DNA from: Brachyhypopomus gauderio
Taxonomy: Eukaryota > Chordata > Actinopteri > Gymnotiformes > Hypopomidae
DNA length: 64,000 nt
Assembly (NCBI RefSeq): GCF_052324685.1
Contig: NC_135220.1
Span: 6,269,843-6,333,842, forward strand
Reading direction: 5' to 3'
Below are positions 2,578 to 43,711 of the stretch, piece by piece (within the stretch, counting starts at the first letter, position 1; every line of letters begins with the position of its first letter). The notes beneath the pieces were generated by a model, which did not search any database, had not been told where the DNA came from, and saw nothing but the letters and a program-made list of their open reading frames with translations. The position numbers and the translations under genes were made by a program.

Positions 2578-2578
<1 letters not shown>

Positions 2579-4621: not shown

Positions 4622-4658
<37 letters not shown>

Positions 4659-6590: not shown

Positions 6591-9500
6591 ATGAGTTTTT
6601 TCCCCAGGAGAACCGACCAGCCTAGGCCTAGGCAGGAACAGAACCACTTCATATACACACCAGGTTTTACCACTCATGGTGAGAAAAATACATTTTCATA
6701 TATACTGTACATAATTTTATACTTCTATGTAAGACAGTATATTAATTCTTATGAGTATGGATTTCCATAGGCTTATTCATAATAATTAAAAGTTAAATAT
6801 GTATACACATTTATATAGTAGGTTTCTAAGGTTCAGAAAAATAACCTGTATATTTATTCTACAGATGACTGTCAAGCTCTTTATTTCATGTGTACAGGAT
6901 AATATAATTAATGGAGCATGGGTTATTTCTTTGATTTCTTTGACTCAGCACAATTTTCACAAATCCCACCATGTTAACATTGTCCATGTGGCCATGGAAA
7001 AAGCAAATAAAAATAAACATTTTTAAAAAGAAACAGATTTCTAACATGACCTCACAAATTCTTAAGCATTCTCCCCACATTCTAATGACATCACATGGCA
7101 CCATAGCCCTTGTTATAATCACTTGTTCATTGGGAAACACTTACAAGACATTTGAGCCTCACTGGGAGGCGTGCTGGGTTTCACTTTACCTGCTGTGGGA
7201 TTTTCAGGTGTGCCCTACAACCCCCAAGCGACAGTGATCCACACGGATCCCTGTGGACCAGCACCCTTCCCTCACGGAAGTACGGCGGGACCCTCAGATG
7301 TCGGCTATGTTAACATGCCTGTAGAAGGACCACTCCTCACTGGTACTGTGTAACACTGAAGATTACATGCGTATTCAACAAATCAAATAACCATGCATGA
7401 TGAAGTATTTATTACATTTGTTTGTAAGGTCTGGCAGAGGTGCAGAACCATCAGCTTTCTGCACATGACCTGACCAGTAAAACATCAGTTTTATCAGAAA
7501 ATATGACATCACATATTCTTCAACATTGTAATGAATTCACATGGCACTGTAGCCCTTCTTATAAACCTGATGATCTTAACAGTACATGCTCATGCTTCCT
7601 CTGTGCCCTGCGTTGGTGTTTTGCATTTAGGCCCTGACATGGAGAGGCAGAGACACCTTGCTCAGCCCCATGTTCAAGGCAAGGTTCTGAGGCAGATGGA
7701 TCCAGTCTACCTCCAGCCTGCTGGTGGGTTCTTCATCGATAACTGTCTTCTTTCATATAGACATTGATAAGATATTTTTACTAGGCACGCGGACTGTTTT
7801 TACAAACATTTGTGAATGGGTCACTCTCAGGAGCTCAGTGAATTCCAGCGTGGAACTGTGACAGTATGCCACCTGTGCAGTAAATCCAGTCGTGAAATTT
7901 CCTCGCTCCTAAAATTCGACAGTCAGCTGTATTATAAGGAAATGGAAGTGTTTGCGATTAACAGCAACTCAGCCACTTGCTTGAATCATATTTCAGTGGC
8001 ACTTTCAGATAAAGAAACATATGCAACGTAGTACTAAGGCACTGAGAAATGTTATGGTGAGGTCATTTCTGCTAATGGCCTTATTCGCCCATGCAGGTGA
8101 AGTTGGCTCCAGCAGGTGTCCCCCACTGCCTGTGCTCACTTCACGCACGACAGTCACCTCGTCAGGACTGATGAGGCCTTCTCCACCCACCTTCACAAGG
8201 TTGCCTCCACTCCCCAAACCTGCTGGCCGAGAGCCTCTCCGTGCCTTCAGGCCTGCCAAAGGTGAGCTCACTCTTTTGCTCTCCTGGAAATGGCATCCAA
8301 ACCATTTGTTGCAGCAACAAAAAAAGTAAAAAAAATATATTTAAAAAGTAAAAACTGCTTTGAAAACCCTATAGGGGAGACCGGGTATAGTTGTAACATG
8401 GGGAGAGTTGTAACACCATCAGTTCACTCATCTGCTAGGCGGTTGTGTTTAGTATAAGGTGATAATGCTTCGAATCATTGTTATACCAGCATAGTATAAT
8501 ACTGATAATACATGTATATGGATTACAGATGTCATTTATCACTATTTTAGTACACCCCCAAACAATCTAAACAAAACATTGTCGTGCTGCTTTGCTGGCT
8601 TCTGATACCTCATCTGGACTGCTGCTAAAGCGTATATCTATTAATCTTTGTAATCTATATAACATGGCTTCTTTAAGTATTGGGTATCACCTGGCCAGCG
8701 TCAAGCAGCAGCAGTCTGTGTGATATAAGGAGTTTGTGCTTTGTACCTACTTCTGTTGGCAAGGGCAATGTGAGCTTACAAGCAAGACTAGACTTGAAAG
8801 TTTTATTGCAGTCAGTTGATTGTGCCAGCACCCCACTCCCCAGGCCTGCGCTGTTCCGATCCAGAGCTTTCCAGAACTCTCCCATAGCCACTTTTGCTCC
8901 TCACTGCCATCTGCAGATTTGATTATGAATAAAAGTTTTCTTAAATGTTATTCAAATTGCTCCTATTCATTAGCACATTTCATTTATCCACTTAATGCTA
9001 CTCTTGATATACATTTGAGCCATGCCAAAATATCGATTATTATAATCTACTATTGTTATTTAAAATGCAGTATGATCTGCAGGTCTTAATTTCATATGCT
9101 GGTCTGAAGATTGAACGTGTCCTCTACAGTTCTGCCTGTGTTTCATGTCCAGGTTCAGTGGAGCCTCCCCAGCTCCACTCTCCAGGGTGGAAGAGAGAGA
9201 GAGTGGGGAGACTTCACCGGAGCGGCAGACATCTTCAACCCTTGCTTCCAGACATATTCGAAGCAGCTAACCCCAGTGATGCTGGCAGAGGTGACTTATT
9301 GATGTTGGCTTTACTTTATGTCATTGAAATACCTGTACAAAATGTAGAATTTATAATGTTGCGTAATTTGTTTTGTGTTAAAATATTGCTAAATACGATA
9401 TTTGGGAACAAGGAGATCAGTTAGTCAGAAACTTCACTCAGGTGTCAAGTGAACGGAGCTAAACTCATGATCATGGATGCCCTTTCCCATGCAGGTTTGC

Positions 9501-12500
9501 CCAAATCCAGCCGCTTGCTGTCTGGGAACCCCCCCGGGTCTTTCCTACTGCCCTCCTACCCTCTGGCCACTCTTCCGGGAGTGCAGCTCACTCCCACTCT
9601 GCATCGTAGACGACACAAGCGAGACACGAGCCCTCGGCGCAGAGACCCGGGTCCGTGGAGGGACAGTACTGGTGAGCGCATGGCTACGTTGCTAAGAACG
9701 TGCTAGGCACACACAGTGAGGCATGGCCGGTTATTTGGGTGCCCGGTTAAGTTAAGTTCGTCTTGCACTAAGCTTGTCTTGCACTTGTTCCCACGTCAGT
9801 GGTAAAGTGATGAGCAGACCTAATTTTGTGGTGTCATACATACTACATGAATTTTATTTTAACCAAAAAATGTGCATATACTTGGATCATTTATAGTCAC
9901 CACTTGTCAAATGTACAAAATACTCATACTGATGCTCTTCATCTGACATGATTTCACTCAGTAATGGAACAGTGTCTAGCAGAGGCGACATGTGCTAGCC
10001 ATTAGCAGAGCTAGGCGGTACTGTAGTTTGGCGCTTCAGTATCTACCAGTATCAGAATTAAAATAATTTTGAATTGTGCCGAAATAATTAAATTGAATCA
10101 AATTGTATTTAAATGTAAGACTTCATGATGCAATAAACTAAAAGAATCACAACTAAGCTAAACTAAAACTGGGTCACACATTTACTGAAGCTCTGATAAA
10201 TGTCTTCCTGCTTCTGGGCTCACGGATGCCCTGCTTTCAGTTCTTCAGTACTAATTCATTGTGCTGCCATTACATGAATTGTAGCAAGATGCATATGAGA
10301 TGTTGCCGTTCTCGGTCCATCTTGCTTGAATCATATTTCAGTGGCACTTTCAGATAAAGAAACATATGCAACGTAGTACTAAGGCACTGAGAAATGTTAT
10401 GGTGAGGTAATTTCTGCTAATGGCCTTATTCGCCCATGCAGGTGAAGTTGGCTCCAGCAGGTGTCCCCCACTGCCTGTGCTCGCTTCACGCACGACAGTC
10501 ACCTCGTCAGGACTGATGAGGCCTTCTCCGCCCACATTCACAAGGTTGCCTCCACTCCCCAAACCTTCTGGCCGAGAGCCTCTCCGTGCCTTCAGGCCTG
10601 CCAAAGGTGAGCTCACTCTTTTGCTCTCCTGGAAATTGCATCCAAAATCATTTGCTGCACCAACAACAACAAAAAAAGTAAAAAAAGTATTAAAAGAGTA
10701 AAAACTGCTTTGAAAGCCCTATACTACAAACAAAAAGCCCCTGCTGATCCTCTTGTACATTGCTATGCCTGCACCCATGGACATGTTTTTCTGCACCATG
10801 AAGAAACCACTATGAAACCAGAAGTTATATTTGGGATTTTTGATGGAGTACGTGTTAATATGTATTGTGCTTTTCAGGATCTCAAGTGCAAAGCACCAGG
10901 GCAGTCCCTGCTGACGACATGTGTGAAGGAGTAGTTGGCAGAGGTTGGAATTGCTTTGCTGTTAACACTGCATTACACAACAATGTTTTATATCTAGTTC
11001 TCCATGTTGAATAATGTTTTGCAGTCAGTTTTCAAGCTGATTTGAACCAAAGTTGAGCTGGTAGCCCTAAAAGTCCTAGTCAGTTTGTTTGGGTTCTGGT
11101 ATTCCTCTCTAGATGAACTCAAACCAGGAACTCCCAGGGAGGATCCCCATGAGCATCAGATTTTACAGCCCTTCTACAAACCAGACCTCGCTCTCGCTCA
11201 GAGCTTCAGACTGCTTAGCTCTGATGACTGGTAAGTCACACCTGCAAAATTCTGAAGCATTTGGCTAGGGCAGGTTAAACAGCAAGTCATTTATGGTGTT
11301 CTGCATATATGGTATGTATGCATGTATTTAGTGAAGTTTTTTCCTCTTTGTCCCTTTTCTTGTAGCATTTTTTACTTTCAGTAGCCGATGGTTACAGTGT
11401 GTGTCTATGTCCAATATCTTCATACAGGGAGAAGAAAATTGAAGGATTGATGTCAATCCGTAGATTGGCTCAGTATCACGCTGATGTGCTTGGCAGCAGG
11501 CTTCATGATGTCTGCATTGTTCTTATTCAAGAGGTAAGCCACTATATTTGCTGACTGTGTATCTGTCTTCTGAATTCTAAAATTGGCAGCCATCAGCATG
11601 TACACATTACAGGTGATGTTGCTGACAAACTCAAGTCAGAGTTAGCATAGTACTTTGAAATTCCTTTTTTATAAAAACATTTCTCATTTAATTGAAATTC
11701 AGATGGCATATCTAACTGTAATTAGTGATTAATGTATTTAGGCCTACATAACACATTGCAGTGGTGGATTATACTTATTAAGATGGCGGTGGCAGTGTTG
11801 GATGTGGCTGAAACGAGCTGGAACGTCGTCTTTCCTGCAGGTGCTGCACCTGCGCTCTGCAGTGTCCCGCATGGCGGTGGTGTCCTTGAGGGAGTTGTAC
11901 TCCAGCCTGCAGAAAGGGATGGACCAGGAAGTGGAGGCTACAGCTAAGGTCCTCCTCCACAAAGCAGCGGAGTCCAATGGCTTCATCAGGCAGGACGTGG
12001 ACACAGCTCTGGACAGCATGGTGCAGAACTGCACCCCCATTCGGAGCATGAACGCCCTTCTTGCTGGAGGACTCTGGTCAGTTAGCATGCAGTGAGCTTT
12101 AAACTGTGGCTTTCAGATAGCAACAACAGTAACAAGAAGCTAACACAACACTGATTATGGCTGCTGTTTTTACTTCTCCATTGTTCTTTCAAAATATTGC
12201 CACGACCTATATCAATATTTTTAGTTATTTATCCTCTTAAATATTTTTTTTTATTGAGTTCCATCTCCGCTCTGCTGATCCAAACTGCCCTTCACACCAC
12301 TTAAAGAATAGGCTAGTTAGCTAGCTCACAGAGGACATACAAACATTTTCTGTTTAAAAAATACATATATACACTAACTGTTGCAAACTAAGCCATTGAA
12401 TAGAATATGATCATTTGATTGTGCACGTAGATCATACATAAGGGTATTAAGTTTCTTTATAGAAGCAAAAAGTTGTACTGTATACATTGATTGGATGGAT

Positions 12501-15500
12501 TAATAGTTATTACCTTCTTTTTTTGAATGCCCTAATTTTTTTCCTTCTGTTTTCCTCAAAAGTCATCTGAATGCTGCAGTAAGAAAGTGTACTGCTCGGC
12601 ACTTGGCTACTTTGGTAGAGAAGATTGGTGCAGAGCGAATTATTCCTGCAGTCTCCAAGTTGGCACAGGACTCTTCCCAAGAAACCAGGTTAGTATTGTG
12701 ATCAGAACGAGAATTCTACAAAGCTTATTCAATTTCCCAGATAGTAATAGATGCTGTGAGTCATGGATCCCTCACTCTCGGTTCTCTCCTGTTTTGGGGT
12801 CTGTTCCTTGTCTCAGGCGCTTGGGCCGGCGTATGCTGCTGTTCCTGTCCTCCCACCACGACTTTGATAAGATGGTGGAAAAGTACATCCCTGCCAAAGA
12901 CCTGGCAACCATCAGGGACACTGTCCTCACTCTGAAATCCAAGGTGGCGATTCATGTTTGGATACATGATGAGGATTTTTTATCCCTTTCAGCAACTATG
13001 CCCCATGTTTACTCACTAAACAAAGCTTATTCACAAAACTTCTAGGTGAAACAGACTGCAATAAAAAAACATCTAAACTGTCATGGTAGACATATATTGT
13101 AAACAAATAATAAAGTACAGGGCAGTGCGTGACACCACACATTGTATTTACAGTAGGACATGCACAGTGGTTGAGCATGGTTCAAAATGAACCGGTTTGA
13201 AACCTTTGGGATAGAATCAAAGTATGAAGCAACATGTGGACTTCAATATCATCACTCCATGTTTTGTGGTGATTCGTACGTGTGTATTCCCAGAAGAGGA
13301 CAAAGGTGTCTAGGATTCCAAGATATAAGATGCGTCAGCCTCGTCTGGAGCAGCAAGAAGCTCCAGCCGCACAGACGGATCGGCAGAACACGCAGCGAAT
13401 GAAGCGCAGCCTTAGGCACACGGTGAAGGACGTGAGCCCAGACGACGCGGCACCTCTGAAAGGTAACGGCTGACCTCGGCAAACGCTCCCCTCCTGTTTC
13501 CTGAGAACTTTACCTTACCGCTTACCTATGAACCTCCTTCTCATCAGACCTGCAGCTGAACAGTAATGTTCCAGCCCAGACTAAGACCGATGTCCTCATG
13601 GATGATTTGCCCACGAGCCCCAGCAATGCACGCACCCCCAGAAGTCCCAGCCCCCCCACGGCTGTCCCTACTAAACACTTACTGCCACGACGCAGACGAG
13701 CTCCCAGTCTGATCAGAGCACGCCCGTCCCTTTCAAACAGTTCTGGTGAGTGTTGCCTGCTCTTCAGCTTCTTCATGTGTGATCACTGCGCTTGCACGTA
13801 AATTGCTTTGCTGTTAACACTGCATTACACAACAATGTTTTAAATCTAGTTCTCCATGTTGAATAATGTTTTGCAGTTACAAGGATGTAACTTTTTTTGT
13901 TTCATGTAGTGAGCTTCACTTCACGTTACACTGCGGGACGTCTTCTGGGCACAGGAGGATTCGGCTCAGTGTATGCAGGAGTCCGCAAGGCTGATGGAAA
14001 ACAGGTGAGCATCAGCACACAATACAAGAATGATTGTGGGACCTAATTTCTATTTTAGATTGTGATTAGAACTTTGAGCTATGAGTTTTCCCTAGAGATC
14101 ATTTGTTATTCACATGGCAATCAAGTGGTCAAGTCTAATGTACCTTGACCTTTTTCCACTTTTTGAACACAAAGATCCTGATTATACAATGTGATAAGCT
14201 TGGCAATCTGTGGATGAGTATTTATCAGACTCCAGATTTATGAGTTACCCGAGAAGCTGTGGCTACCATCTGAAAGCCCTTAGATATGTTAAATATACTG
14301 TCTGTTTTGTGTAAACAACTTCACTTCCTGTGTTTTTTATGTGACCAGATCGCCATTAAATTTGTGCCAAAGTATCACGCAGAAAGGTTCATCACTGTTG
14401 TAAGTCCAATACCTTTACTTATGTAATATTGCAACAATGTTTGAAACTTTTTAGATGGGTAAAACTGTAAAGGGACTATAAACGCAAAGCTGTTAATTTT
14501 CCATTCAGTGACTCCTCACAACACGAATGGAAAACAGTTCACATTTTATATTCAGGTTTCATCTAATGATTGGTACCAATCCAGATCCCTTTCATGTTAA
14601 CCTGCTAACCATAATTCCACTATAAATCTTCAAACCCATACTAACCAAGTCTTCCTTAATTTTAGCCCGGCAATACTCGCCGTCTCCCCTTAGAGGTGGC
14701 TTTAATGGAGATGGTGTGCAAGCCACCTCGTTGTGAGCATATTGTGGAGCTCCTAGAATGGTTTGAGTGCCACAAGTGCTTCATCTTGATTCTGGAGCGA
14801 CCCGTCCCCTGCATAGACCTGTTTGACTTCTTGAACTTGCACCAACGCCAACTGCCTGAGCCACTGGCACGACGGATCATGCGTCAGGTGGTTCAGGCTG
14901 TCCTTCACTGCCATGACCGTGGAGTTCTGCATAGAGACATCAAGGGAAAGAACCTTCTGGTGAACCTGGACACCCTTGACGTCAAGTTGATCGACTTTGG
15001 CTGTGGCGATCTGCTTAAGACCGGACCCTACAGGCACTTTAGAGGTTATTCACCATAGGAATGAAATGTGCACCTCAAGTTAAAAAATGGGATCAAATTA
15101 GAGACTATTATAAACATTTTATTTTGTTATTGATGATTCTCTCTCGTTGTCTCAGGCACCATGGTATACAGCCCACCTGAATGGCAGGTTGACAGGACGT
15201 ATGAGGGCCGTCAAGCCACCATCTGGAGTCTGGGTGTGCTCCTCTACAGTATTATCTGTGGACATCTGCCCTTTGAGAAGGTGGAGGACATTGTTGAGGC
15301 ACACCTGTGCTTCAGTGGAAACCCATCCAGAGGTGAAAAGGCAGAAGCATCTTCAAGATAACTAGAAAGTCTAAATTGCAAAATGATCATTTATGTAATT
15401 ATTTAATCTGGTAATGTAATACACAACCACAGATTGATAAAATGGACTAATGAAGAATGGAGAATTGGCAATACAACATTTTGTAACCGTCTTAAAATGA

Positions 15501-15762
15501 TAAAAAGTTTTGTTCAGTCTTTTTTGTTAGTGATGGAGGTTTCTGTACAGTTCTGTCATTTATAAACTTTGAATAAGCCATTAGAACAGTCAGATCAGAA
15601 GTTTCAGATGGTAATTGATTTTCTTTCTCAACTAATCCCGTTGCTACACACACAGACTGCCGCCATCTGATAACATGGTGTCTTCAAAAGGACCCTGCAA
15701 AACGTCCTGTGCTCGAGGATGTTCTTGCACATGAGTGGTTTTTAGAAGGACTTCAGAACTAA
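6591..15762 (+). CDS. Chimeric TOG-domain / PIM-like kinase gene, copy 1 (20 coding exons)
   Basis: Coding exons: 6591-6678, 7208-7342, 7631-7723, 8097-8261, 9153-9290, 9495-9671, 10442-10606, 10878-10943, 11113-11230, 11428-11533, 11841-12076, 12563-12688, 12817-12943, 13294-13462, 13548-13745, 13910-14004, 14349-14399, 14666-15044, 15156-15332, 15656-15762. All splice phases agree; total 2916 nt, 971 aa plus stop. Residues 1-342 are Pro/Arg/Ser-rich, likely disordered. Residues about 375-575 form one TOG domain most like TOGARAM TOG3 (DDWEKKIEGL, QEVLHLRSAVSRMAVV, HHDFDKMVEKYIP), a fold that binds tubulin. Residues 581-702 are a basic Ser/Pro linker. Residues 703-971 are a full PIM-type kinase: GTGGFGSVYAG loop, Lys738, Glu761, the PIM hinge ERPVP (795-799), HRD 840-842, DFG 861-863, SPPEW. 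The start is the first ATG after the acceptor at 6583; an upstream start in another exon is possible. U1 has Gln where the other copies have Arg in 'RRLAxYHAD'. Expression as one fusion mRNA is inferred; the kinase could instead be a nested gene starting in exon 14. Confidence 0.75.
7816..7976 (+). pseudogene. Tc1-like transposase N-terminal fragment, U1
   Basis: A frame starting MGHSQELSEFQRGTV and continuing CHLCSKSSREISSLL resembles the N-terminal DNA-binding part of Tc1/mariner transposases common in fish. After about 35 residues it is degraded; 'agcaactcagccac' near the end still matches the family. No catalytic DDE region or inverted repeats are seen. It lies in the intron between coding exons 3 and 4 and abuts the start of a duplicated exon block. 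Confidence 0.75.
7977..8373 (+). repeat. Internal exon duplication, first copy (U1)
   Basis: This block of about 397 bp holds coding exon 4 (8097-8261) with its intron flanks. It is repeated at 10321-10724 around coding exon 7. Both exons are 165 bp, phase 1-1, and encode 55 residues differing at two positions (Thr/Ala in 'PVLTSRTT', Ala/Ser in 'PKPAGREP'). Equivalent first blocks are at 21377-21773, about 36046-36442, about 49327-49723 and 62735-63131. Confidence 0.9.
8371..8420. repeat. Possible short interspersed repeat at the end of the duplicated exon block
   Basis: The sequence 'aggggagaccgggtatagttgtaacatggggagagttgtaac' starts exactly where similarity between the two exon blocks ends. 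I recall similar sequence as an interspersed repeat in fish, but assign no family. It is present in U1-U5 (U2 about 21771, U3 about 36440, U4 about 49721, U5 about 63129). Confidence 0.35.
10321..10724 (+). repeat. Internal exon duplication, second copy (U1)
   Basis: Second copy of the exon-4 block, holding coding exon 7 (10442-10606). Similarity starts at 'cttgcttgaatcat' and ends at 'gccctata'. Equivalent blocks lie at 23721-24124, 38392-38795 and 51671-52082. The U4 block contains the longer CAA run. Confidence 0.9.
10949..11025 (+). repeat. 77-bp intron segment shared with the kinase intron, first copy
   Basis: From 'aattgctttgctg' to 'ttttgcagt' this segment is identical to 13801-13877 except for one base. 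Here it lies in the intron before the first TOG exon. It begins 6 bp after the end of coding exon 8. Confidence 0.9.
12953..13261 (+). repeat. Duplicated intron segment flanking the kinase cassette, left copy (U1)
   Basis: This 309-bp segment starts 10 bp after the last TOG3 exon (12943). It is repeated at 15792-16125 with about 90% or better identity by eye. Left copies in other units: 26224-26532, 40896-41204 and 54311-54619. Confidence 0.9.
13801..13877 (+). repeat. 77-bp intron segment shared with the TOG intron, second copy
   Basis: Second copy, in the intron just upstream of the exon with the kinase glycine-rich loop. Both copies recur in the other complete units; in U2 they are at 24349-24425 and 27072-27148. 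Confidence 0.9.
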
Positions 15763-15791: not shown

Positions 15792-16125
15792 CATGTTTGC
15801 ATACATGATGAGGATTTTTTATCCCATTCAGCCACTATGCCCCATGTTTACTCACTAAACAAAGCTTATTCACAAAACCTTTAGGTGAAACAGACTGCAA
15901 AAAAAAACCATCTAAACTGTGATGGTAGACATATATTGTAAAAAAATATTAAAGTACAGGGCAGTGCGTGGCACCATACATTGTATTTACAGTAGGGCAT
16001 GCACAGTGTAGTCCCAGACCCAGTAGTTAAAGGACAGAGCATGGTTCAAAATGAACCGGCTTGAAACCTTTGGGATATAACCAAAGTATGAAGCAACATG
16101 TGGACTTCAATATCATCACTCCATG
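15792..16125 (+). repeat. Duplicated intron segment flanking the kinase cassette, right copy (U1)
   Basis: It starts 29 bp after the kinase stop codon and ends 18 bp before the relic exon that continues the TOGARAM reading frame. It carries about 26 extra bases ('tagtcccagacccagtag...') relative to the left copy. It contains ATTAAA near 15948, a possible weak poly(A) signal for the kinase transcript. Right copies elsewhere: 29063-29396, 43741-44074 and 57150-57483. Confidence 0.9.
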
Positions 16126-16143: not shown

Positions 16144-18032
16144 GATCTGGGTGAGATGCCTCAGGATACACAGCTCGAGGCAGGCGCTCCATCCCAGCTG
16201 TGGAGTCATGCGTACCTCCTCCTCAGTTTGCCAGCAGGTGAATATTTAAAATCAAACAACAACAAAAATCAAAACAACAACAAAAAAGTGCATCCTGATT
16301 GGAACTGCTTTGATGTTTGCAATTTTGATGGTTTTGATGTTGGTTTAATTTGATTGCAGCCTTGTTCATTTTGTGTTTCAACACTATAACCCAATCCTTG
16401 TGTTTTCTCTCTTGTGTGTGTTCAGCAAAGACAGCAGCAGAGCACACATCCTTAGCATTGCAGACAAGACGGAGTACGTCAAGCAGCTCAAGGCCCTGCT
16501 GGGTTCAAAAGACTTCAGGGAGCGCATCAAGTGCATTGATCAGCTGGTGGTCGACTGCGAAGACAACCCATATATGGTCGTGGGCAACATGTTCCCGGTA
16601 ACTCATTTGAACTGAATTGATTTTTAATGTTTTCAGCAGCTTTCAGAAGTGATCTGTATAGGGGGTCATACGTTGGAGAACATTAAATGCTGGCACATTT
16701 TAAATGCTGGCACATCACACTGCTCAGATGTGCCAGCACTGCTCAGAGACAACCTGGCCCAAGTGGTCTAGATCTTAGTCCCAGCTATAGTGGACAATCA
16801 CCTCAACTCCAAGAATAACGCCATCTACATGGCAACAATAGGTGCCATTCAAGCTCTCATCAATAACCTTGGTGGGTTCATTTCTCTCTTCACAAAACAT
16901 CTTGAAGAACACATGCCACTGGGCTTTAGAAAAACAACAACAACAATGATTGTGTTCTGTTTTACCTTTGGGGAAAAGGTTCACACAAATCGGTAAAAGA
17001 ATGTTCCTGCTCTTTGGCTAGATGTTTGTGGTGCAGATCAAATGGAAATTTCCTTTCATATTAAGGCACAGTCCAATATAAAGAGAAAAAAAAGACTGAC
17101 AGGAGATCTTGCGTTATCTGACAGCAGATTGTTAAATAATGGAGTTTACAGTGGATGTGCTTAGGCTCTTTTGTTCTGCCTAATATGCACTCAAATAATT
17201 ATGCATATGTGTTCCAAATGACCATTTGCAAACAGAGCTTTGTTCTCCTATCAGATACTGTTCATATATATTTAGTTAAAGTGTAACATTTTATGTGAAT
17301 AATTAGTTGTTTTGATAAAGCAGGACACGTTTCTAAAAAGAATTACCATACTGTAAATATTGCTGAACTTGACCAACACTGTCCTTGATCTATCTTTTTT
17401 CAGATAACACTACTTCTTCAACTGTTTTGCACAAAGGCTCGATTTCTCAGTGGAAAAGCTAAAGTGGATCTTGTTGATAAAGTTGCAGGTAAGTATACAA
17501 TATACAGTGTCTAATCTTTTGTGGTTGTGTATACAGAAATATTCTACAAATTCAAATACATTTATCAAAAAACAATTATTTCAGAAAGTCATTCCACTGA
17601 TATGCTAAGAGATGCCAGAGATAAAAAAAAAAGATAAAAGATTTACCAGAAATACTATAATTCCTATATTTATTAATAATATTTATAATATTGATAATAA
17701 TCATTCCAGAGAGTTACCATAGTTACCAAATACTGTCACTTTAATTGAATTAAATCTTTCTAGGTTAAGAAAATGCTTCTGCAATAACCCAGTACTTTCC
17801 AGGGTTGATTTATTTATCTTGTTCTTTTTATAGAGGTGGTTAGGGAACTCTACCCCTGCAAGCCACAACTGGTTGAGCAGAAGGTGCTTCCTCTGCTCTG
17901 GTACCTCCTGGGGACCTCCAGCAACAGTGGTACAGTCCACGGGAGGGGTGGAAGCGTAAGGGGGGCCACTGTCCACCTATGCCAAGCCGCAAGAGCCTAA
18001 ACGAGTTTGTGAAGAACCTCTCGATCAACTGA
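16144..18032 (+). pseudogene. Decayed TOG4 and C-terminal exons of a togaram2-like gene, U1
   Basis: Relic pieces: 16144-16211 (LGEMPQDT linker), 16426-16597 (KDFRERIKCIDQLVVDC, start of TOG4), about 16726-16871 (ILVPAIVDNHLNSKN), 17404-17488 (FCTKARFLSGKAK) and 17834-18032 (KVLPLLWYLLGTSSNSG, then LNEFVKNLSIN before TGA). Lesions: the exon expected between 16597 and 16726 is missing; TAG at 16769-16771 interrupts TOG4; the 17404 exon joins out of frame after a G-ending donor; the last exon reads to a stop after 'LCQAARA' and the C-terminal helix is in another frame. U1 reads EVV where the other copies read ELV. TOG4 would have been the second tubulin-binding-type module. Confidence 0.75.
16705..16738. 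repeat. 11-bp perfect inverted repeat at the edge of the relic TOG4 exon
   Basis: TGCTGGCACAT, a 12-nt loop, then ATGTGCCAGCA. A second direct copy of 'aatgctggcacat' lies just upstream. It sits exactly where a TOG4 exon is missing and is present in all four complete units. Confidence 0.85.
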
Positions 18033-19990: not shown

Positions 19991-22900
19991 ATGAGTTTTT
20001 TCCCCAGGAGAACCGACCAGCCTAGGCCTAGGCAGGAACAGAACCACTTCATATACACACCAGGTTTTACCACTCATGGTGAGAAAAATACATTTTCATA
20101 TATACTGTACATAATTTTATACTTCTATGTAAGACAGTATATTAATTCTTATGAGTATGGATTTCCATAGGCTTATTCATAATAATTAAAAGTTAAATAT
20201 GTATACACATTTATATAGTAGGTTTCTAAGGTTCAGAAAAATAACCTGTATATTTATTCTACAGATGACTGTCAAGCTCTTTATTTCATGTGTACAGGAT
20301 AATATAATTAATGGAGCATGGGTTATTTCTTTGATTTCTTTGACTCAGCACAATTTTCACAAATCCCACCATGTTAACATTGTCCATGTGGCCATGGAAA
20401 AAGCAAATAAAAATAAACATTTTTAAAAAGAAACAGATTTCTAACATGACCTCACAAATTCTTAAGCATTCTCCCCACATTCTAATGACATCACATGGCA
20501 CCATAGCCCTTGTTATAATCACTTGTTCATTGGGAAACACTTACAAGACATTTGAGCCTCACTGGGAGGCGTGCTGGGTTTCACTTTACCTGCTGTGGGA
20601 TTTTCAGGTGTGCCCTACAACCCCCAAGCGACAGTGATCCACACGGATCCCTGTGGACCAGCACCCTTCCCTCACGGAAGTACGGCGGGACCCTCAGATG
20701 TCGGCTATGTTAACATGCCTGTAGAAGGACCACTCCTCACTGGTACTGTGTAACACTGAAGATTACATGCGTATTCAACAAATCAAATAACCATGCATGA
20801 TGAAGTATTTATTACATTTGTTTGTAAGGTCTGGCAGAGGTGCAGAACCATCAGCTTTCTGCACATGACCTGACCAGTAAAACATCAGTTTTATCAGAAA
20901 ATATGACATCACATATTCTTCAACATTGTAATGAATTCACATGGCACTGTAGCCCTTCTTATAAACCTGATGATCTTAACAGTACATGCTCATGCTTCCT
21001 CTGTGCCCTGCGTTGGTGTTTTGCATTTAGGCCCTGACATGGAGAGGCAGAGACACCTTGCTCAGCCCCATGTTCAAGGCAAGGTTCTGAGGCAGATGGA
21101 TCCAGTCTACCTCCAGCCTGCTGGTGGGTTCTTCATCGATAACTGTCTTCTTTCATATAGACATTGATAAGATATTTTTACTAGGCACGCGGACTGTTTT
21201 TACAAACATTTGTGAATGGGTCACTCTCAGGAGCTCAGTGAATTCCAGCGTGGAACTGTGACAGTATGCCACCTGTGCAGTAAATCCAGTCGTGAAATTT
21301 CCTCGCTCCTAAAATTCGACAGTCAGCTGTATTATAAGGAAATGGAAGTGTTTGCGATTAACAGCAACTCAGCCACTTGCTTGAATCATATTTCAGTGGC
21401 ACTTTCAGATAAAGAAACATATGCAACGTAGTACTAAGGCACTGAGAAATGTTATGGTGAGGTCATTTCTGCTAATGGCCTTATTCGCCCATGCAGGTGA
21501 AGTTGGCTCCAGCAGGTGTCCCCCACTGCCTGTGCTCACTTCACGCACGACAGTCACCTCGTCAGGACTGATGAGGCCTTCTCCACCCACCTTCACAAGG
21601 TTGCCTCCACTCCCCAAACCTGCTGGCCGAGAGCCTCTCCGTGCCTTCAGGCCTGCCAAAGGTGAGCTCACTCTTTTGCTCTCCTGGAAATGGCATCCAA
21701 ACCATTTGTTGCAGCAACAAAAAAAGTAAAAAAAATATATTTAAAAAGTAAAAACTGCTTTGAAAACCCTATAGGGGAGACCGGGTATAGTTGTAACATG
21801 GGGAGAGTTGTAACACCATCAGTTCACTCATCTGCTAGGCGGTTGTGTTTAGTATAAGGTGATAATGCTTCGAATCATTGTTATACCAGCATAGTATAAT
21901 ACTGATAATACATGTATATGGATTACAGATGTCATTTATCACTATTTTAGTACACCCCCAAACAATCTAAACAAAACATTGTCGTGCTGCTTTGCTGGCT
22001 TCTGATACCTCATCTGGACTGCTGCTAAAGCGTATATCTATTAATCTTTGTAATCTATATAACATGGCTTCTTTAAGTATTGGGTATCACCTGGCCAGCG
22101 TCAAGCAGCAGCAGTCTGTGTGATATAAGGAGTTTGTGCTTTGTACCTACTTCTGTTGGCAAGGGCAATGTGAGCTTACAAGCAAGACTAGACTTGAAAG
22201 TTTTATTGCAGTCAGTTGATTGTGCCAGCACCCCACTCCCCAGGCCTGCGCTGTTCCGATCCAGAGCTTTCCAGAACTCTCCCATAGCCACTTTTGCTCC
22301 TCACTGCCATCTGCAGATTTGATTATGAATAAAAGTTTTCTTAAATGTTATTCAAATTGCTCCTATTCATTAGCACATTTCATTTATCCACTTAATGCTA
22401 CTCTTGATATACATTTGAGCCATGCCAAAATATCGATTATTATAATCTACTATTGTTATTTAAAATGCAGTATGATCTGCAGGTCTTAATTTCATATGCT
22501 GGTCTGAAGATTGAACGTGTCCTCTACAGTTCTGCCTGTGTTTCATGTCCAGGTTCAGTGGAGCCTCCCCAGCTCCACTCTCCAGGGTGGAAGAGAGAGA
22601 GAGTGGGGAGACTTCACCGGAGCGGCAGACATCTTCAACCCTTGCTTCCAGACATATTCGAAGCAGCTAACCCCAGTGATGCTGGCAGAGGTGACTTATT
22701 GATGTTGGCTTTACTTTATGTCATTGAAATACCTGTACAAAATGTAGAATTTATAATGTTGCGTAATTTGTTTTGTGTTAAAATATTGCTAAATACGATA
22801 TTTGGGAACAAGGAGATCAGTTAGTCAGAAACTTCACTCAGGTGTCAAGTGAACGGAGCTAAACTCATGATCATGGATGCCCTTTCCCATGCAGGTTTGC

Positions 22901-25900
22901 CCAAATCCAGCCGCTTGCTGTCTGGGAACCCCCCCGGGTCTTTCCTACTGCCCTCCTACCCTCTGGCCACTCTTCCGGGAGTGCAGCTCACTCCCACTCT
23001 GCATCGTAGACGACACAAGCGAGACACGAGCCCTCGGCGCAGAGACCCGGGTCCGTGGAGGGACAGTACTGGTGAGCGCATGGCTACGTTGCTAAGAACG
23101 TGCTAGGCACACACAGTGAGGCATGGCCGGTTATTTGGGTGCCCGGTTAAGTTAAGTTCGTCTTGCACTAAGCTTGTCTTGCACTTGTTCCCACGTCAGT
23201 GGTAAAGTGATGAGCAGACCTAATTTTGTGGTGTCATACATACTACATGAATTTTATTTTAACCAAAAAATGTGCATATACTTGGATCATTTATAGTCAC
23301 CACTTGTCAAATGTACAAAATACTCATACTGATGCTCTTCATCTGACATGATTTCACTCAGTAATGGAACAGTGTCTAGCAGAGGCGACATGTGCTAGCC
23401 ATTAGCAGAGCTAGGCGGTACTGTAGTTTGGCGCTTCAGTATCTACCAGTATCAGAATTAAAATAATTTTGAATTGTGCCGAAATAATTAAATTGAATCA
23501 AATTGTATTTAAATGTAAGACTTCATGATGCAATAAACTAAAAGAATCACAACTAAGCTAAACTAAAACTGGGTCACACATTTACTGAAGCTCTGATAAA
23601 TGTCTTCCTGCTTCTGGGCTCACGGATGCCCTGCTTTCAGTTCTTCAGTACTAATTCATTGTGCTGCCATTACATGAATTGTAGCAAGATGCATATGAGA
23701 TGTTGCCGTTCTCGGTCCATCTTGCTTGAATCATATTTCAGTGGCACTTTCAGATAAAGAAACATATGCAACGTAGTACTAAGGCACTGAGAAATGTTAT
23801 GGTGAGGAAATTTCTGCTAATGGCCTTATTCGCCCATGCAGGTGAAGTTGGCTCCAGCAGGTGTCCCCCACTGCCTGTGCTCGCTTCACGCACGACAGTC
23901 ACCTCGTCAGGACTGATGAGGCCTTCTCCGCCCACATTCACAAGGTTGCCTCCACTCCCCAAACCTTCTGGCCGAGAGCCTCTCCGTGCCTTCAGGCCTG
24001 CCAAAGGTGAGCTCACTCTTTTGCTCTCCTGGAAATTGCATCCAAAATCATTTGCTGCACCAACAACAACAAAAAAAGTAAAAAAAGTATTAAAAGAGTA
24101 AAAACTGCTTTGAAAGCCCTATACTACAAACAAAAAGCCCCTGCTGATCCTCTTGTACATTGCTATGCCTGCACCCATGGACATGTTTTTCTGCACCATG
24201 AAGAAACCACTATGAAACCAGAAGTTATATTTGGGATTTTTGATGGAGTACGTGTTAATATGTATTGTGCTTTTCAGGATCTCAAGTGCAAAGCACCAGG
24301 GCAGTCCCTGCTGACGACATGTGTGAAGGAGTAGTTGGCAGAGGTTGGAATTGCTTTGCTGTTAACACTGCATTACACAACAATGTTTTATATCTAGTTC
24401 TCCATGTTGAATAATGTTTTGCAGTCAGTTTTCAAGCTGATTTGAACCAAAGTTGAGCTGGTAGCCCTAAAAGTCCTAGTCAGTTTGTTTGGGTTCTGGT
24501 ATTCCTCTCTAGATGAACTCAAACCAGGAACTCCCAGGGAGGATCCCCATGAGCATCAGATTTTACAGCCCTTCTACAAACCAGACCTCGCTCTCGCTCA
24601 GAGCTTCAGACTGCTTAGCTCTGATGACTGGTAAGTCACACCTGCAAAATTCTGAAGCATTTGGCTAGGGCAGGTTAAACAGCAAGTCATTTATGGTGTT
24701 CTGCATATATGGTATGTATGCATGTATTTAGTGAAGTTTTTTCCTCTTTGTCCCTTTTCTTGTAGCATTTTTTACTTTCAGTAGCCGATGGTTACAGTGT
24801 GTGTCTATGTCCAATATCTTCATACAGGGAGAAGAAAATTGAAGGATTGATGTCAATCCGTAGATTGGCTCGGTATCACGCTGATGTGCTTGGCAGCAGG
24901 CTTCATGATGTCTGCATTGTTCTTATTCAAGAGGTAAGCCACTATATTTGCTGACTGTGTATCTGTAAATTCAGATGGCATATCTAACTGTAATTAGTGA
25001 TTAAGGTATTTAGGCCTACATAACACATTGCAGTGGTGGATTATACTTATTAAGATGGCGGTGGCAGTGTTGGATGTGGCTGAAACGAGCTGGAACGTCG
25101 TCTTTCCTGCAGGTGCTGCACCTGCGCTCTGCAGTGTCCCGCATGGCGGTGGTGTCCTTGAGGGAGTTGTACTCCAGCCTGCAGAAAGGGATGGACCAGG
25201 AAGTGGAGGCTACAGCTAAGGTCCTCCTCCACAAAGCAGCGGAGGCCAATGGCTTCATCAGGCAGGACGTGGACACAGCTCTGGACAGCATGGTGCAGAA
25301 CTGCACCCCCATTCGGAGCATGAACGCCCTTCTTGCTGGAGGACTCTGGTCAGTTAGCATGCAGTGAGCTTTAAACTGTGGCTTTCAGATAGCAACAACA
25401 GTCACAAGAAGCTAACACAACACTGATTATGGCTGCTGTTTTTACTTCTCCATTGTTCTTTCAAAATATTGCCACGACCTATATCAATATTTTTAGTTAT
25501 TTATCCTCTTAAATATTTTTTTTATTGAGTTCCATCTCCGCTCTGCTGATCCAAACTGCCCTTCACACCACTTAAAGAATAGGCTAGTTAGCTAGCTCAC
25601 AGAGGACATACAAACATTTTCTGTTTAAAAAATACATATATACACTAACTGTTGCAAACTAAGCCATTGAATAGAATATGATCATTTGATTGTGCACGTA
25701 GATCATACATAAGGGCATTAAGTTTCTTTATAGAAGCAAAAAGTTGTACTGTATACATTGATTGGATGGATTAATAGTTATTACCTTCTTTTTTTGAATG
25801 CCCTAATTTTTTTCCTTCTGTTTTCCTCAAAAGTCATCTGAATGCTGCAGTAAGAAAGTGTACTGCTCGGCACTTGGCTACTTTGGTAGAGAAGATTGGT

Positions 25901-28900
25901 GCAGAGCGAATTATTCCTGCAGTCTCCAAGTTGGCACAGGACTCTTCCCAAGAAACCAGGTTAGTATTGTGATCAGAACGAGAATTCTACAAAGCTTATT
26001 CAATTTCCCAGATAGTAATAGATGCTGTGAGTCATGGATCCCTCACTCTCGGTTCTCTCCTGTTTTGGGGTCTGTTCCTCGTCTCAGGCGCTTGGGCCGG
26101 CGTATGCTGCTGTTCCTGTCCTCCCACCACGACTTTGATAAGATGGTGGAAAAGTACATCCCTGCCAAAGACCTGGCAACCATCAGGGACACTGTCCTCA
26201 CTCTGAAATCCAAGGTGGCGATTCATGTTTGGATACATGATGAGGATTTTTTATCCCTTTCAGCAACTATGCCCCATGTTTACTCACTAAACAAAGCTTA
26301 TTCACAAAACTTCTAGGTGAAACAGACTGCAATAAAAAAACATCTAAACTGTCATGGTAGACATATATTGTAAACAAATAATAAAGTACAGGACAGTGCG
26401 TGACACCACACATTGTATTTACAGTAGGACATGCACAGTGGTTGAGCATGGTTCAAAATGAACCGGTTTGAAACCTTTGGGATAGAATCAAAGTATGAAG
26501 CAACATGTGGACTTCAATATCATCACTCCATGTTTTGTGGTGATTCGTACGTGTGTATTCCCAGAAGAGGACAAAGGTGTCTAGGATTCCAAGATATAAG
26601 ATGCGTCAGCCTCGTCTGGAGCAGCAAGAAGCTCCAGCCGCACAGACGGATCGGCAGAACACGCAGCGAATGAAGCGCAGCCTTAGGCACACGGTGAAGG
26701 ACGTGAGCCCAGACGACGCGGCACCTCTGAAAGGTAACGGCTGACCTCGGCAAACGCTCCCCTCCTGTTTCCTGAGAACTTTACCTTACCGCTTACCTAT
26801 GAACCTCCTTCTCATCAGACCTGCAGCTGAACAGTAATGTTCCAGCCCAGACTAAGACCGATGTCCTCATGGATGATTTGCCCACGAGCCCCAGCAATGC
26901 ACGCACCCCCAGAAGTCCCAGCCCCCCCACGGCTGTCCCTACTAAACACTTACTGCCACGACGCAGACGAGCTCCCAGTCTGATCAGAGCACGCCCGTCC
27001 CTTTCAAACAGTTCTGGTGAGTGTTGCCTGCTCTTCAGCTTCTTCATGTGTGATCACTGCGCTTGCACGTAAATTGCTTTGCTGTTAACACTGCATTACA
27101 CAACAATGTTTTAAATCTAGTTCTCCATGTTGAATAATGTTTTGCAGTTACAAGGATGTAACTTTTTTTGTTTCATGTAGTGAGCTTCACTTCACGTTAC
27201 ACTGCGGGACGTCTTCTGGGCACAGGAGGATTCGGCTCAGTGTATGCAGGAGTCCGCAAGGCTGATGGAAAACAGGTGAGCATCAGCACACAATACAAGA
27301 ATGATTGTGGGACCTAATTTCTATTTTAGATTGTGATTAGAACTTTGAGCTATGAGTTTTCCCTAGAGATCATTTGTTATTCACATGGCAATCAAGTGGT
27401 CAAGTCTAATGTACCTTGACCTTTTTCCACTTTTTGAACACAAAGATCCTGATTATACAATGTGATAAGCTTGGCAATCTGTGGATGAGTATTTATCAGA
27501 CTCCAGATTTATGAGTTACCCGAGAAGCTGTGGCTACCATCTGAAAGCCCTTAGATATGTTAAATATACTGTCTGTTTTGTGTAAACAACTTCACTTCCT
27601 GTGTTCTTTATGTGACCAGATCGCCATTAAATTTGTGCCAAAGTATCACGCAGAAAGGTTCATCACTGTTGTAAGTCCAATACCTTTACTTATGTAATAT
27701 TGCAACAATGTTTGGAACTTTTTAGATGGGTAAAACTGTAAAGGGACTATAAACGCAAAGCTGTTAATTTTCCATTCAGTGACTCCTCACAACACGAATG
27801 GAAAACAGTTCACATTTTAGATTCAGGTTTCATCTAATGATTGGTACCAATCCAGATCCCTTTCATGTTAACCTGCTAACCATAATTCCACTATAAATCT
27901 TCAAACCCATACTAACCAAGTCTTCCTTAATTTTAGCCCGGCAATACTCGCCGTCTCCCCTTAGAGGTGGCTTTAATGGAGATGGTGTGCAAGCCACCTC
28001 GTTGTGAGCATATTGTGGAGCTCCTAGAATGGTTTGAGTGCCACAAGTGCTTCATCTTGATTCTGGAGCGACCCGTCCCCTGCATAGACCTGTTTGACTT
28101 CTTGAACTTGCACCAACGCCAACTGCCTGAGCCACTGGCACGACGGATCATGCGTCAGGTGGTTCAGGCTGTCCTTCACTGCCATGACCGTGGAGTTCTG
28201 CATAGAGACATCAAGGGAAAGAACCTTCTGGTGAACCTGGACACCCTTGACGTCAAGTTGATCGACTTTGGCTGTGGCGATCTGCTTAAGACCGGACCCT
28301 ACAGGCACTTTAGAGGTTATTCACCATAGGAATGAAATGTGCACCTCAAGTTAAAAAATGGGATCAAATTAGAGACTATTATAAACATTTTATTTTGTTA
28401 TTGATGATTCTCTCTCGTTGTCTCAGGCACCATGGTATACAGCCCACCTGAATGGCAGGTTGACAGGACGTATGAGGGCCGTCAAGCCACCATCTGGAGT
28501 CTGGGTGTGCTCCTCTACAGTATTATCTGTGGACATCTGCCCTTTGAGAAGGTGGAGGACATTGTTGAGGCACACCTGTGCTTCAGTGGAAACCCATCCA
28601 GAGGTGAAAAGGCAGAAGCATCTTCAAGATAACTAGAAAGTCTAAATTGCAAAATGATCATTTATGTAATTATTTAATCTGGTAATGTAATACACAACCA
28701 CAGATTGATAAAATGGACTAATGAAGAATGGAGAATTGGCAATACAACATTTTGTAACCGTCTTAAAATGATAAAAAGTTTTGTTCAGTCTTTTTTGTTA
28801 GTGATGGAGGTTTCTGTACAGTTCTGTCATTTATAAACTTTGAATAAGCCATTAGAACAGTCAGATCAGAAGTTTCAGATGGTAATTGATTTTCTTTCTC

Positions 28901-29033
28901 AACTAATCTCGTTGCTACACACACAGACTGCCGCCATCTGATAACATGGTGTCTTCAAAAGGACCCTGCAAAACGTCCTGTGCTCGAGGATGTTCTTGCA
29001 CATGAGTGGTTTTTAGAAGGACTTCAGAACTAA
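19991..29033 (+). CDS. Chimeric TOG-domain / PIM-like kinase gene, copy 2
   Basis: Coding exons: 19991-20078, 20608-20742, 21031-21123, 21497-21661, 22553-22690, 22895-23071, 23842-24006, 24278-24343, 24513-24630, 24828-24933, 25113-25348, 25834-25959, 26088-26214, 26565-26733, 26819-27016, 27181-27275, 27620-27670, 27937-28315, 28427-28603, 28927-29033. The frame is open throughout (971 aa) with no lesion seen. Compared with copy 1 it has Arg in 'RRLARYHAD' and Ala instead of Ser in 'KAAEANGF' of the TOG domain. The kinase residues read the same as copy 1. Confidence 0.75.
21216..21376 (+). pseudogene. Tc1-like transposase fragment, U2
   Basis: Same fragment at the same intronic position as in U1, carried along by the tandem duplication. 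Confidence 0.75.
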
Positions 29034-29414
29034 CTCAGGTTAGACAAGGAGTATAAATGGAACATGTTTGCATACATGATGAGGATTTTTTATCCCATTC
29101 AGCCACTATGCCCCATGTTTACTCACTAAACAAAGCTTATTCACAAAACCTTAAGGTGAAACAGACTGCAAAAAAAAACCATCTAAACTGTGATGGTAGA
29201 CATATATTGTAAAAAAATATTAAAGTACAGGGCAGTGCGTGGCACCATACATTGTATTTACAGTAGGGCATGCACAGTGTAGTCCCAGACCCAGTAGTTA
29301 AAGGACAGAGCATGGTTCAAAATGAACCGGCTTGAAACCTTTGGGATAGAACCAAAGTATGAAGCAACATGTGGACTTCAATATCATCACTCCATGATGT
29401 TGATGTGGCTTTAG

Positions 29415-31304
29415 GATCTGGGTGAGATGCCTCAGGATACACAGCTCGAGGCAGGCGCTCCATCCCAGCTGTGGAGTCATGCGTACCTCCTCCTCAGTTT
29501 GCCAGCAGGTGAATATTTAAAATCAAACAACAACAAAAATCAAAACAACAACAAAAAAGTGCATCCTGATTGGAACTGCTTTGATGTTTGCAATTTTGAT
29601 GGTTTTGATGTTGGTTTTGATTTGATTGCAGCCTTGTTCATTTTGTGTTTCAACACTATAACCCAATCCTTGTGTTTTCTCTCTTGTGTGTGTTCAGCAA
29701 AGACAGCAGCAGAGCACACATCCTTAGCATTGCAGACAAGACGGAGTACGTCAAGCAGCTCAAGGCCCTGCTGGGTTCAAAAGACTTCAGGGAGCGCATC
29801 AAGTGCATTGATCAGCTGGTGGTCGACTGCGAAGACAACCCATATATGGTCGTGGGCAACATGTTCCCGGTAACTCATTTGAACTGAATTGATTTTTAAT
29901 GTTTTCAGCAGCTTTCAGAAGTGATCTGTATAGGGGGTCATACGTTGGAGAACATTAAATGCTGGCACATTTTAAATGCTGGCACATCACACTGCTCAGA
30001 TGTGCCAGCACTGCTCAGAGACAACCTGGCCCAAGTGGTCTAGATCTTAGTCCCAGCTATAGTGGACAATCACCTCAACTCCAAGAATAACGCCATCTAC
30101 ATGGCAACAATAGGTGCCATTCAAGCTCTCATCAATAACCTTGGTGGGTTCATTTCTCTCTTCACAAAACATCTTGAAGAACACATGCCACTGGGCTTTA
30201 GAAAAACAACAACAACAATGATTGTGTTCTGTTTTACCTTTGGGGAAAAGGTTCACACAAATCGGTAAAAGAATGTTCCTGCTCTTTGGCTAGATGTTTG
30301 TGGTGCAGATCAAATGGAAATTTCCTTTCATATTAAGGCACAGTCCAATATAAAGAGAAAAAAAAAGACTGACAGGAGATCTTGCGTTATCTGACAGCAG
30401 ATTGTTAAATAATGGAGTTTACAGTGGATGTGCTTAGGCTCTTTTGTTCTGCCTAATATGCACTCAAATAATTATGCATATGTGTTCCAAATGACCATTT
30501 GCAAACAGAGCTTTGTTCTCCTATCAGATACTGTTCATATATATTTAGTTAAAGTGTAACATTTTATGTGAATAATTAGTTGTTTTGATAAAGCAGGACA
30601 AGTTTCTAAAAAGAATTACCATACTGTAAATATTGCTGAACTTGACCAACACTGTCCTTGATCTATCTTTGTTCAGATAACACTACTTCTTCAACTGTTT
30701 TGCACAAAGGCTCGATTTCTCAGTGGAAAAGCTAAAGTGGATCTTGTTGATAAAGTTGCAGGTAAGTATACAATATACAGTGTCTAATCTTTTGTGGTTG
30801 TGTATACAGAAATATTCTACAAATTCAAATACATTTATCAAAAAACAATTATTTCAGAAAGTCATTCCACTGATATGCTAAGAGATGCCAGAGATAAAAA
30901 AAAAGATAAAAGATTTACCAGAAATACTATAATTCCTATATTTATTAATAATATTTATAATATTGATAATAATCATTCCAGAGAGTTACCATAGTTACCA
31001 AATACTGTCACTTTAATTGAATTAAATCTTTCTAGGTTAAGAAAATGCTTCTGCAATAACCCAGTACTTTCCAGGGTTGATTTATTTATCTTGTTCTTTT
31101 TATAGAGCTGGTTAGGGAACTCTACCCCTGCAAGCCACAACTGGTTGAGCAGAAGGTGCTTCCTCTGCTCTGGTACCTCCTGGGGACCTCCAGCAACAGT
31201 GGTACAGTCCACGGGAGGGGTGGAAGCGTAAGGGGGGCCACTGTCCACCTATGCCAAGCCGCAAGAGCCTAAACGAGTTTGTGAAGAACCTCTCGATCAA
31301 CTGA
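29415..31304 (+). pseudogene. Decayed TOG4 and C-terminal exons, U2
   Basis: Same pieces and same lesions as U1, including the in-frame TAG after 'NLAQVV'. It has one extra base in the intron before the 'KDFRER' piece ('ggttttgattt'). Confidence 0.75.
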
Positions 31305-43600: not shown

Positions 43601-43711
43601 ACAGACTGCCGCCATCTGATAACATGGTGTCTTCAAAAGGACCCTGCAAAACGTCCTGTGCTCGAGGATGTTCTTGCACATGAGTGGTTTTTAGAAGGAC
43701 TTCAGAACTAA
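34660..43711 (+). CDS. Chimeric TOG-domain / PIM-like kinase gene, copy 3 (10-residue insertion in linker)
   Basis: Coding exons: 34660-34747, 35277-35411, 35700-35792, 36166-36330, 37222-37359, 37566-37742, 38513-38677, 38949-39014, 39184-39301, 39499-39604, 39784-40019, 40506-40631, 40760-40886, 41237-41405, 41491-41718, 41883-41977, 42301-42351, 42615-42993, 43105-43281, 43605-43711. Total 981 aa: exon 15 is 228 bp instead of 198 because of an in-frame 30-bp insertion adding about VKSLIPPLHP between 'TPRSP' and 'SPPTAV'. Other differences include Arg for Gly in 'FPHRSTAG' of exon 2 and His for Leu in 'DTVHTLKSK' at the end of the TOG domain. Kinase residues are unchanged. Confidence 0.75.
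35885..36045 (+). pseudogene. Tc1-like transposase fragment, U3
   Basis: Same fragment; one visible change turns Ser to Asn in 'CHLCNKSSRE'. Confidence 0.75.

Follow-up and report, generated by a model that had tools for sequence, protein, structure and literature searches.

A candidate fusion of TOGARAM1 and PIM-like kinase sequences, tandemly repeated in Brachyhypopomus gauderio

Can a single gene of the fish Brachyhypopomus gauderio encode both a TOG domain of the TOGARAM1 type and a PIM-type kinase? The question is raised by a 64,000-nucleotide stretch of its genome (NCBI RefSeq assembly GCF_052324685.1, contig NC_135220.1, positions 6,269,843 to 6,333,842 of the forward strand; hereafter the window, with all coordinates counted from its first nucleotide), in which a sequence-only reading had claimed one unbroken reading frame that passes from a TOGARAM-type TOG domain into a complete PIM-like kinase. 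Here, we propose that this locus is probably a genuine chimeric protein-coding gene of B. gauderio that has been tandemly amplified. The same reading knew of no described TOG-PIM fusion, and we likewise recognised no description of one among the papers listed for related terms in the open-licence PubMed Central literature.

The frame itself is the firmest part of the proposal. When joined by script, the 20 exons between 6591 and 15762 (plus strand) give one 971-codon frame without an internal stop, ending in a TAA at 15760-15762 and yielding a product of 971 amino acids; all 19 introns are GT-AG and the phases agree at every junction. Pfam finds a CLASP_N domain at residues 380-518 (1.5e-8) and a Pkinase domain at residues 709-965 (3.3e-53), while residues 1-580, which include the TOG part, have no match in the PDB at E 0.001. 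A protein search of about 5.8 billion sequences (8000 candidates scored, 653 with E <= 0.001, the best 120 of these 653 examined, fusions of about 534-1700 residues within reach) returned the predicted protein P0003 (1004 amino acids), which covers the whole query at 97% identity and has the identical exon chain plus one 33-residue cassette between exons 2 and 3. Its cluster holds 46 members, which are sequences and not a count of separate genes. Of the matches with a species name, the nearest are B. gauderio proteins annotated as 'uncharacterized'. Since P0003 was predicted independently and has the same exon chain, the fusion frame is not a chance product, and we are highly confident that it is real.

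Do other proteins share this architecture? We screened 247 proteins, drawn from the listed matches, for both domains; 112 had a TOG3 match, 133 had a PIM match, and five had both, namely P0003, which is the window's own product, and P0001, P0002, P0005, and P0011, all from B. gauderio. Single predicted proteins with both domains, which the sequence-only reading had suggested seeking in related fish, thus exist, but none among the listed matches comes from another species, and Electrophorus electricus, which has a TOGARAM1, shows no fusion among the best 120 of the 653 matches. Related arrangements do occur in B. gauderio: P0001 and P0002 are TOG-TOG-PIM proteins, P0004 and P0006 are TOG-TOG proteins, and others carry the leader of the window gene directly before a PIM-like kinase. 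To judge by their sequences, P0001/P0002 and P0004/P0006 look like further products of the process that gave rise to the window gene.

The kinase half belongs to the PIM family. Its best PDB relative is PIM-1 (262 bits, E 3e-77), followed by PIM-2 (238 bits), with the best non-PIM kinase at 135 bits among the best 60 of 2554 PDB matches, and the domain is complete, with the lysine, glutamate, HRD, and DFG that had been read from the DNA. The ERPxP hinge is a hallmark of PIM kinases; the window kinase reads LERPVP, LERPxP is found in all five fusions, and ERPxP also appears in the PIM-1 alignment. In its full kinase domain, hinge, and catalytic motifs the fusion resembles the pim-1/2/3-like proteins of fish, and it differs from its PIM-like relatives in having a leader and TOGARAM1 parts in place of their N-terminal exon. 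Compared one by one with the window kinase, the other four fusion kinases show 85-86% identity, and the glycine loop, AIK, alpha-C, ERPxP, HRDxKxxN, DFG, and PPEW are kept in five of five. In a tree of 36 PIM-like rows (like the TOG3 tree below, a quick search with Shimodaira-Hasegawa-like approximate likelihood ratio test (SH-aLRT) support alone), the fusion kinases fall inside a B. gauderio PIM-like clade at 99%. Within it, the window kinase, P0001/P0002, P0005/P0011, and the leader-PIM group form no resolved single group, and the chosen outgroup rows do not lie on one side of a branch; this tree would be compatible with PIM entering once or several times.

The remainder of the protein derives largely from TOGARAM1. 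In tblastn searches, the B. gauderio TOGARAM1 (P0014) matches exons 4, 6, 7, 8, 9-13, 14, and 15. Exons 9, 10, 11, and 13 are 81-92% identical to its TOG3, and exon 12 is 62% identical in an alignment that has an 11-residue gap and extends beyond the exon. In a TOG3 tree of 38 rows, the copies from B. gauderio cluster with the TOGARAM1 of that species (98% SH-aLRT), beside Electrophorus (95%); together with the CLASP_N and tblastn matches, this bears out the TOGARAM-type assignment made from the DNA. The conserved tryptophan (DDW), present in 100% of 98 outgroup TOG3 domains, is kept in the window TOG3; we take it to lie in the first intra-HEAT loop, a trait of tubulin-binding TOG domains. Relative to TOGARAM1 (also known as crescerin or FAM179B), the fusion has the same linker pieces and TOG3, but it is without TOG1, TOG2, and a working TOG4, its linker order is rearranged, and it has gained a new leader and a kinase C-terminus. 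With P0014 as query, tblastn found no match to TOG1 or TOG2 in the unit and none to exons 1-3, which also lie outside the PIM kinase domain. Thus the arrangement of four TOG domains in two pairs that marks a TOGARAM1 ortholog is absent, with TOG1 and TOG2 unmatched and TOG4 decayed.

Where, then, does TOGARAM1 end and the kinase begin? Exon 14 had been taken for a kinase linker, and the join between 12943 and 13294 for the boundary between the two domains. That join is indeed in frame, but exons 14 and 15 match residues 807-938 of P0014 (67% and 69% identity in gapped alignments, that of exon 14 extending beyond the exon), a stretch that in TOGARAM1 lies directly upstream of TOG3 and is followed by ELTPG, whereas in the window gene it comes after TOG3 and before the kinase. 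This match rules out exons 14 and 15 as part of the kinase. Since they are TOGARAM1-derived, the decisive TOG/kinase junction is that between exons 15 and 16 (13745/13910).

The introns around this junction suggest how it arose. A stretch of 77 bp in the intron before the kinase is 98.7% identical to the intron before TOG3, and some 330 bp of sequence starting about 10 bp beyond the last TOG3 exon is found again roughly 30 bp past the kinase stop (87.7% identity over 334 aligned positions). The five PIM exons thus appear to occupy the slot expected for a second TOG3 copy, entered in the same phase 1. On the simplest reading of these sequences, a block of linker plus TOG3 would have been duplicated, and the PIM exons would have come to lie in the second TOG3's slot, an order of events that we infer. 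A search of the unit with four B. gauderio PIM-like proteins (tblastn) matched leader exons 1-2 and the kinase exons and did not find the PIM N-terminal exon, which by this search leaves the kinase without a separate first exon in the unit.

Downstream of the kinase lies what remains of TOG4. Its first exon matches in two frames, an in-frame stop is found at 16769, LAQVV is followed by a stop, and its last exon is frame-broken near the end; the VFDAFK exon has no match downstream of the stop by tblastn or pattern search. All four complete units agree in the stop, in how the first exon reads, and in the break of the last exon, as would be expected if the end of the kinase is the true end of the gene.

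These units form a tandem array, and what had been read as a single gene is the first of four complete units and one partial unit in the window, with exon 1 at 6591, 19991, 34660, 47941, and 61349 (Table 1). The units are spaced 13.3-14.7 kb apart and by self-comparison are mostly more than 99% identical. Each of the four complete units has an open frame and retains its splice dinucleotides. With gapped columns left out, 9 of 2916 coding sites vary among the four (1/809 in the kinase, 5/713 in TOG3), as do 41 of 6103 intron sites and 10 of 2334 sites downstream.

Table 1. Positions in the window of the exons, repeated intron stretches, TOG4 remnant, and further array units
Feature	Position	Strand	Remarks
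Exon 1	6591..6678	+	Start codon and leader MSFFPRRTDQ; common to B. gauderio leader-PIM and TOG-TOG genes
Exon 2	7208..7342	+	Leader
Optional cassette exon of P0003	7429..7526	+	Approximate ends, read off the sequence
Exon 3	7631..7723	+	Leader
Exon 4	8097..8261	+	Piece of the long TOGARAM1 linker; duplicate is exon 7
Exon 5	9153..9290	+	TOGARAM1-linker-like (SVEPLQLHSPGWKRE) by reading; absent from tblastn matches
Exon 6	9495..9671	+	TOGARAM1 linker
Exon 7	10442..10606	+	Copy of exon 4
Exon 8	10878..10943	+	TOGARAM1 linker (GSQVQSTRA..EGVVGR)
Pre-TOG3 intron stretch	10949..11025	+	Recurs before kinase, 98.7%
Exons 9-13, TOG3	11113-11230, 11428-11533, 11841-12076, 12563-12688, 12817-12943	+	
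R, post-TOG3 intron stretch	12953..13261	+	Recurs after kinase stop, 87.7%
Exon 14	13294..13462	+	TOGARAM1 pre-TOG3 linker; not kinase-derived
Exon 15	13548..13745	+	TOGARAM1 pre-TOG3 linker; ends in phase 1
Copy of pre-TOG3 intron stretch	13801..13877	+	Upstream of kinase
Exon 16	13910..14004	+	Kinase glycine loop GTGGFGSV
Exon 17	14349..14399	+	Kinase ATP lysine (AIK)
Exon 18	14666..15044	+	Kinase alpha-C Glu, PIM-like hinge ERPVP, HRD, DFG
Exon 19	15156..15332	+	Kinase PPEW segment and C-lobe
Exon 20	15656..15762	+	Kinase C-terminus and stop
R', second copy of post-TOG3 intron stretch	15792..16125	+	
Decayed TOGARAM1 TOG4 exons	16147..18032	+	
Array unit 2	19991..31304	+	Reaches from exon 1 to the TOG4 relic; last base of kinase stop at 29033
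Array unit 3	34660..45982	+	Same extent as unit 2; last base of kinase stop at 43711; 30-bp in-frame insertion in exon 15
Array unit 4	47941..59390	+	Same extent as unit 2; last base of kinase stop at 57120
Array unit 5	61349..64000	+	Window end falls within exon 5

Has the fusion been kept by selection? Conservation was scored from 101 PIM proteins outside the group, with 10 gap-consensus columns dropped. Where conservation is at least 0.9, the five fusion kinases vary at 1 of 63 sites, against 58 of 196 elsewhere (p = 2e-7); with those columns included the counts are 1/67 and 60/202 (p = 6e-8). The 12 residues unique to the window kinase among nine B. gauderio kinases are distributed likewise, with 1 among the 110 sites whose conservation reaches 0.7 and 11 among the 159 others. 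For TOG3, the window copy differs from TOGARAM1 TOG3 at 5 of 131 conserved sites and 17 of 107 others (p = 0.0015), in bins pooled at 0.9 after being seen. The kinase sites thus appear strongly constrained across the five fusions, and the evidence for the TOG domain is weaker and mixed.

Several points count against a functional fusion gene. Pooling the eight fusion TOG3 copies gives no significant constraint, either at the 0.9 cut (28/131 versus 35/107, p = 0.056) or at the 0.97 cut (14/73 versus 49/165, p = 0.11), and part of the divergence among the kinases may predate the fusion. The units are very young, as the intron differences indicate, so four intact frames out of four say little on selection. 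The window TOG3 has lost 11 residues (GRLLSGAKDVT), as have the first TOG domains of P0001 and P0002; the exon 8 donor (GTTGGA) looks weak; and database protein models favour open frames. Lastly, the intron between exons 13 and 14 contains two AATAAA signals (13060 and 13109), so TOG-only transcripts that end before the kinase are possible.

This last point belongs to an explanation in which the locus makes two products: one transcript would carry the TOG part alone and terminate in the intron that follows exon 13, and another would encode the kinase, driven by its own promoter within 12944-13293 and starting at an internal methionine in exon 14, the fused frame being kept by ancestry and unused. 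Besides the two AATAAA motifs, such an in-frame methionine does exist (YKMRQ), B. gauderio has proteins with TOG domains alone that end shortly after the linker begins (P0004 and P0006), and it has kinase proteins without a TOG domain (P0121 and P0125). We nevertheless consider this explanation unlikely: exons 14-15 come from the TOGARAM1 linker and do not represent the first exon of a kinase, the intron at 12944-13293 is mostly a copy of the sequence that follows the kinase and is CpG-poor (0.40), and, by reading, the database models of nine proteins (P0001-P0007, P0010, and P0013) splice across it.

We give the same low probability to a chimera without function, a pseudogene or the passenger of an amplifying segment, that was multiplied by recent segmental duplication and whose intact frames reflect its youth. 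The near-identity of the units and the pooled TOG3 result agree with this, as does the joining of one leader to parts of several genes, which suggests loose shuffling, but the fusion kinases, about 14% apart from that of the window, all keep their catalytic motifs, their changes avoid conserved sites, and the frame-breaking changes found in the window units are all downstream of the stop. High-identity tandem repeats are, as is generally known, hard to assemble, and collapsed or mis-joined repeats, or faulty annotation, might have created the fusion; we regard such an artefact as very improbable, given that the TOG/kinase adjacency is seen in four of four units and recurs with different sequence in proteins on contigs of 25.3, 49.9, and 33.8 Mb, and that at one inter-unit junction an inserted sequence is flanked by an 8-bp target-site duplication. 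A genuine, tandemly amplified fusion gene is hence the explanation that we retain.

How would such a gene have been put together, and what might its protein do? In the sequence, a duplicated TOGARAM1 fragment (linker pieces and TOG3) follows leader exons 1-3, PIM-like exons occupy the place expected for the next TOG3, and the kinase's own stop codon cuts off the decayed TOG4. A promoter at the leader would then drive a single transcript of leader, linker pieces, TOG3, linker, and kinase. We consider translation of the fusion protein likely. PIM kinases are active without activation-loop control or phosphorylation, and if the fusion is translated, its kinase would probably be active, presumably also without activation-loop control.

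Targeting to microtubules or cilia, again given translation, is something to which we give even odds. The TOG3 and linker would tie the kinase to microtubules or to TOGARAM1 partners, with tethering that we expect to be weak and to involve microtubules or CEP104, and in cells that bear cilia or flagella the kinase might then have proteins of the axoneme or the tip as substrates. PMC12170345 reports that the TOGARAM1 linker raises microtubule affinity and binds CEP104, that TOG2 binds ARMC9, and that TOG3 and TOG4 are redundant for rescue in reconstituted systems, and it refers to previous work where TOG3 by itself did not promote polymerisation. In view of these findings, the kinase on microtubules that the sequence-only reading foresaw is plausible as a prediction. 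Binding to ARMC9 should be lost, because TOG2 mediates it and TOG2 is absent. The Drosophila Togaram is located at the sperm neck, according to PMC13104979, which makes sperm a sensible tissue to consider.

The leader may hold a further clue. Its exons 1-2 recur in kinase-only proteins (P0121, with exon 1 only, and P0125, with both), in TOG proteins (P0246 and others), and in P0241 and P0242, and in P0247 a leader of this family precedes the CEP164 N-terminus (residues 120-178; PDB 7nwj, E 1.6e-23). CEP164 is a centriole protein. A search with residues 1-80 of P0125, which covered lengths of about 206-656 residues, recovered 8 proteins from 12 candidates, P0125 included, all from B. gauderio. 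P0241 and P0242 combine leader repeats with a Q/Y-rich protein, P0241 being without a Pfam match, and a protein of their type may be the leader's source. One speculative scenario, to which we attach little probability, is a young family of chimeras in B. gauderio, formed when this leader and probably its promoter came to stand before pieces of the ciliary genes TOGARAM1 and CEP164 and of a PIM kinase. The TOG-PIM member would then have been tandemly amplified because of a function in the germ line or the sperm flagellum, where its kinase, placed on axonemal microtubules, would be under selection for dosage or would even distort transmission. The Smok/Tcr kinase of the mouse t complex, which is likewise multicopy, joined to a second gene, and active on the flagellum of sperm, offers an analogy alone, with no shared ancestry.

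Other features of the locus are recorded here as separate observations. The duplication that produced exon 7 from exon 4 includes the flanks (94.6% identity over 405 bp) and gives the protein another proline-rich piece of linker. Read-through past the exon 19 donor (15333-15361) gives GEKAEASSR and a stop, which is the C-terminus of the kinase-only P0125, and this ending is possibly that of a truncated kinase form. Between units 2 and 3 lies an element at 31948-33352, which we take to be hAT-like, with ends CAGAGGTGGG/CCCACCTCTG (31956-33344) and an 8-bp target duplication, CTATATGC. Repeats of about 0.9 kb, 94-95% alike, border the array within window positions 1-4754 (1666-2581, 2919-3833, and 3832-4757). 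The sex system of B. gauderio is given as X1X1X2X2/X1X2Y in PMC3833772.

Among other fishes, two kinds of protein invite comparison. Ictalurus P0008 and P0009 have four and three detected tandem TOG3 repeats and so share with the fusion a repeated TOGARAM1 TOG3, but they have no kinase, and we rejected them as products of the same event, since the tree nests them with Ictalurus TOGARAM1; theirs is an independent event. The catfish proteins P0103 and P0016 likewise combine a PIM-like kinase with part of a helical-repeat protein unrelated to it, but the partner there is the TPR domain of Sec16 and the kinase falls outside the B. gauderio clade. A PIM-like kinase with a Sec16 TPR domain is also seen, by listed PF12931 matches, in P0149, P0162, and P0202, again from catfishes.

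That chimeric genes arise through duplication and exon shuffling is known; what is new here is the pairing of domains, the proposed origin by exchange within a TOG3 slot, and the amplification. If the protein is translated, a TOG domain of ciliary type would be newly paired with a PIM-type kinase. The locus and its relatives would offer a clean and recent case of vertebrate exon shuffling, with the parent gene, TOG-TOG, TOG-TOG-PIM, and leader-PIM forms, and a decaying TOG4 in what appears to be one species. Nature would here also have provided a means of asking if microtubules can become a new target site for a PIM kinase, and why such a gene has been amplified.

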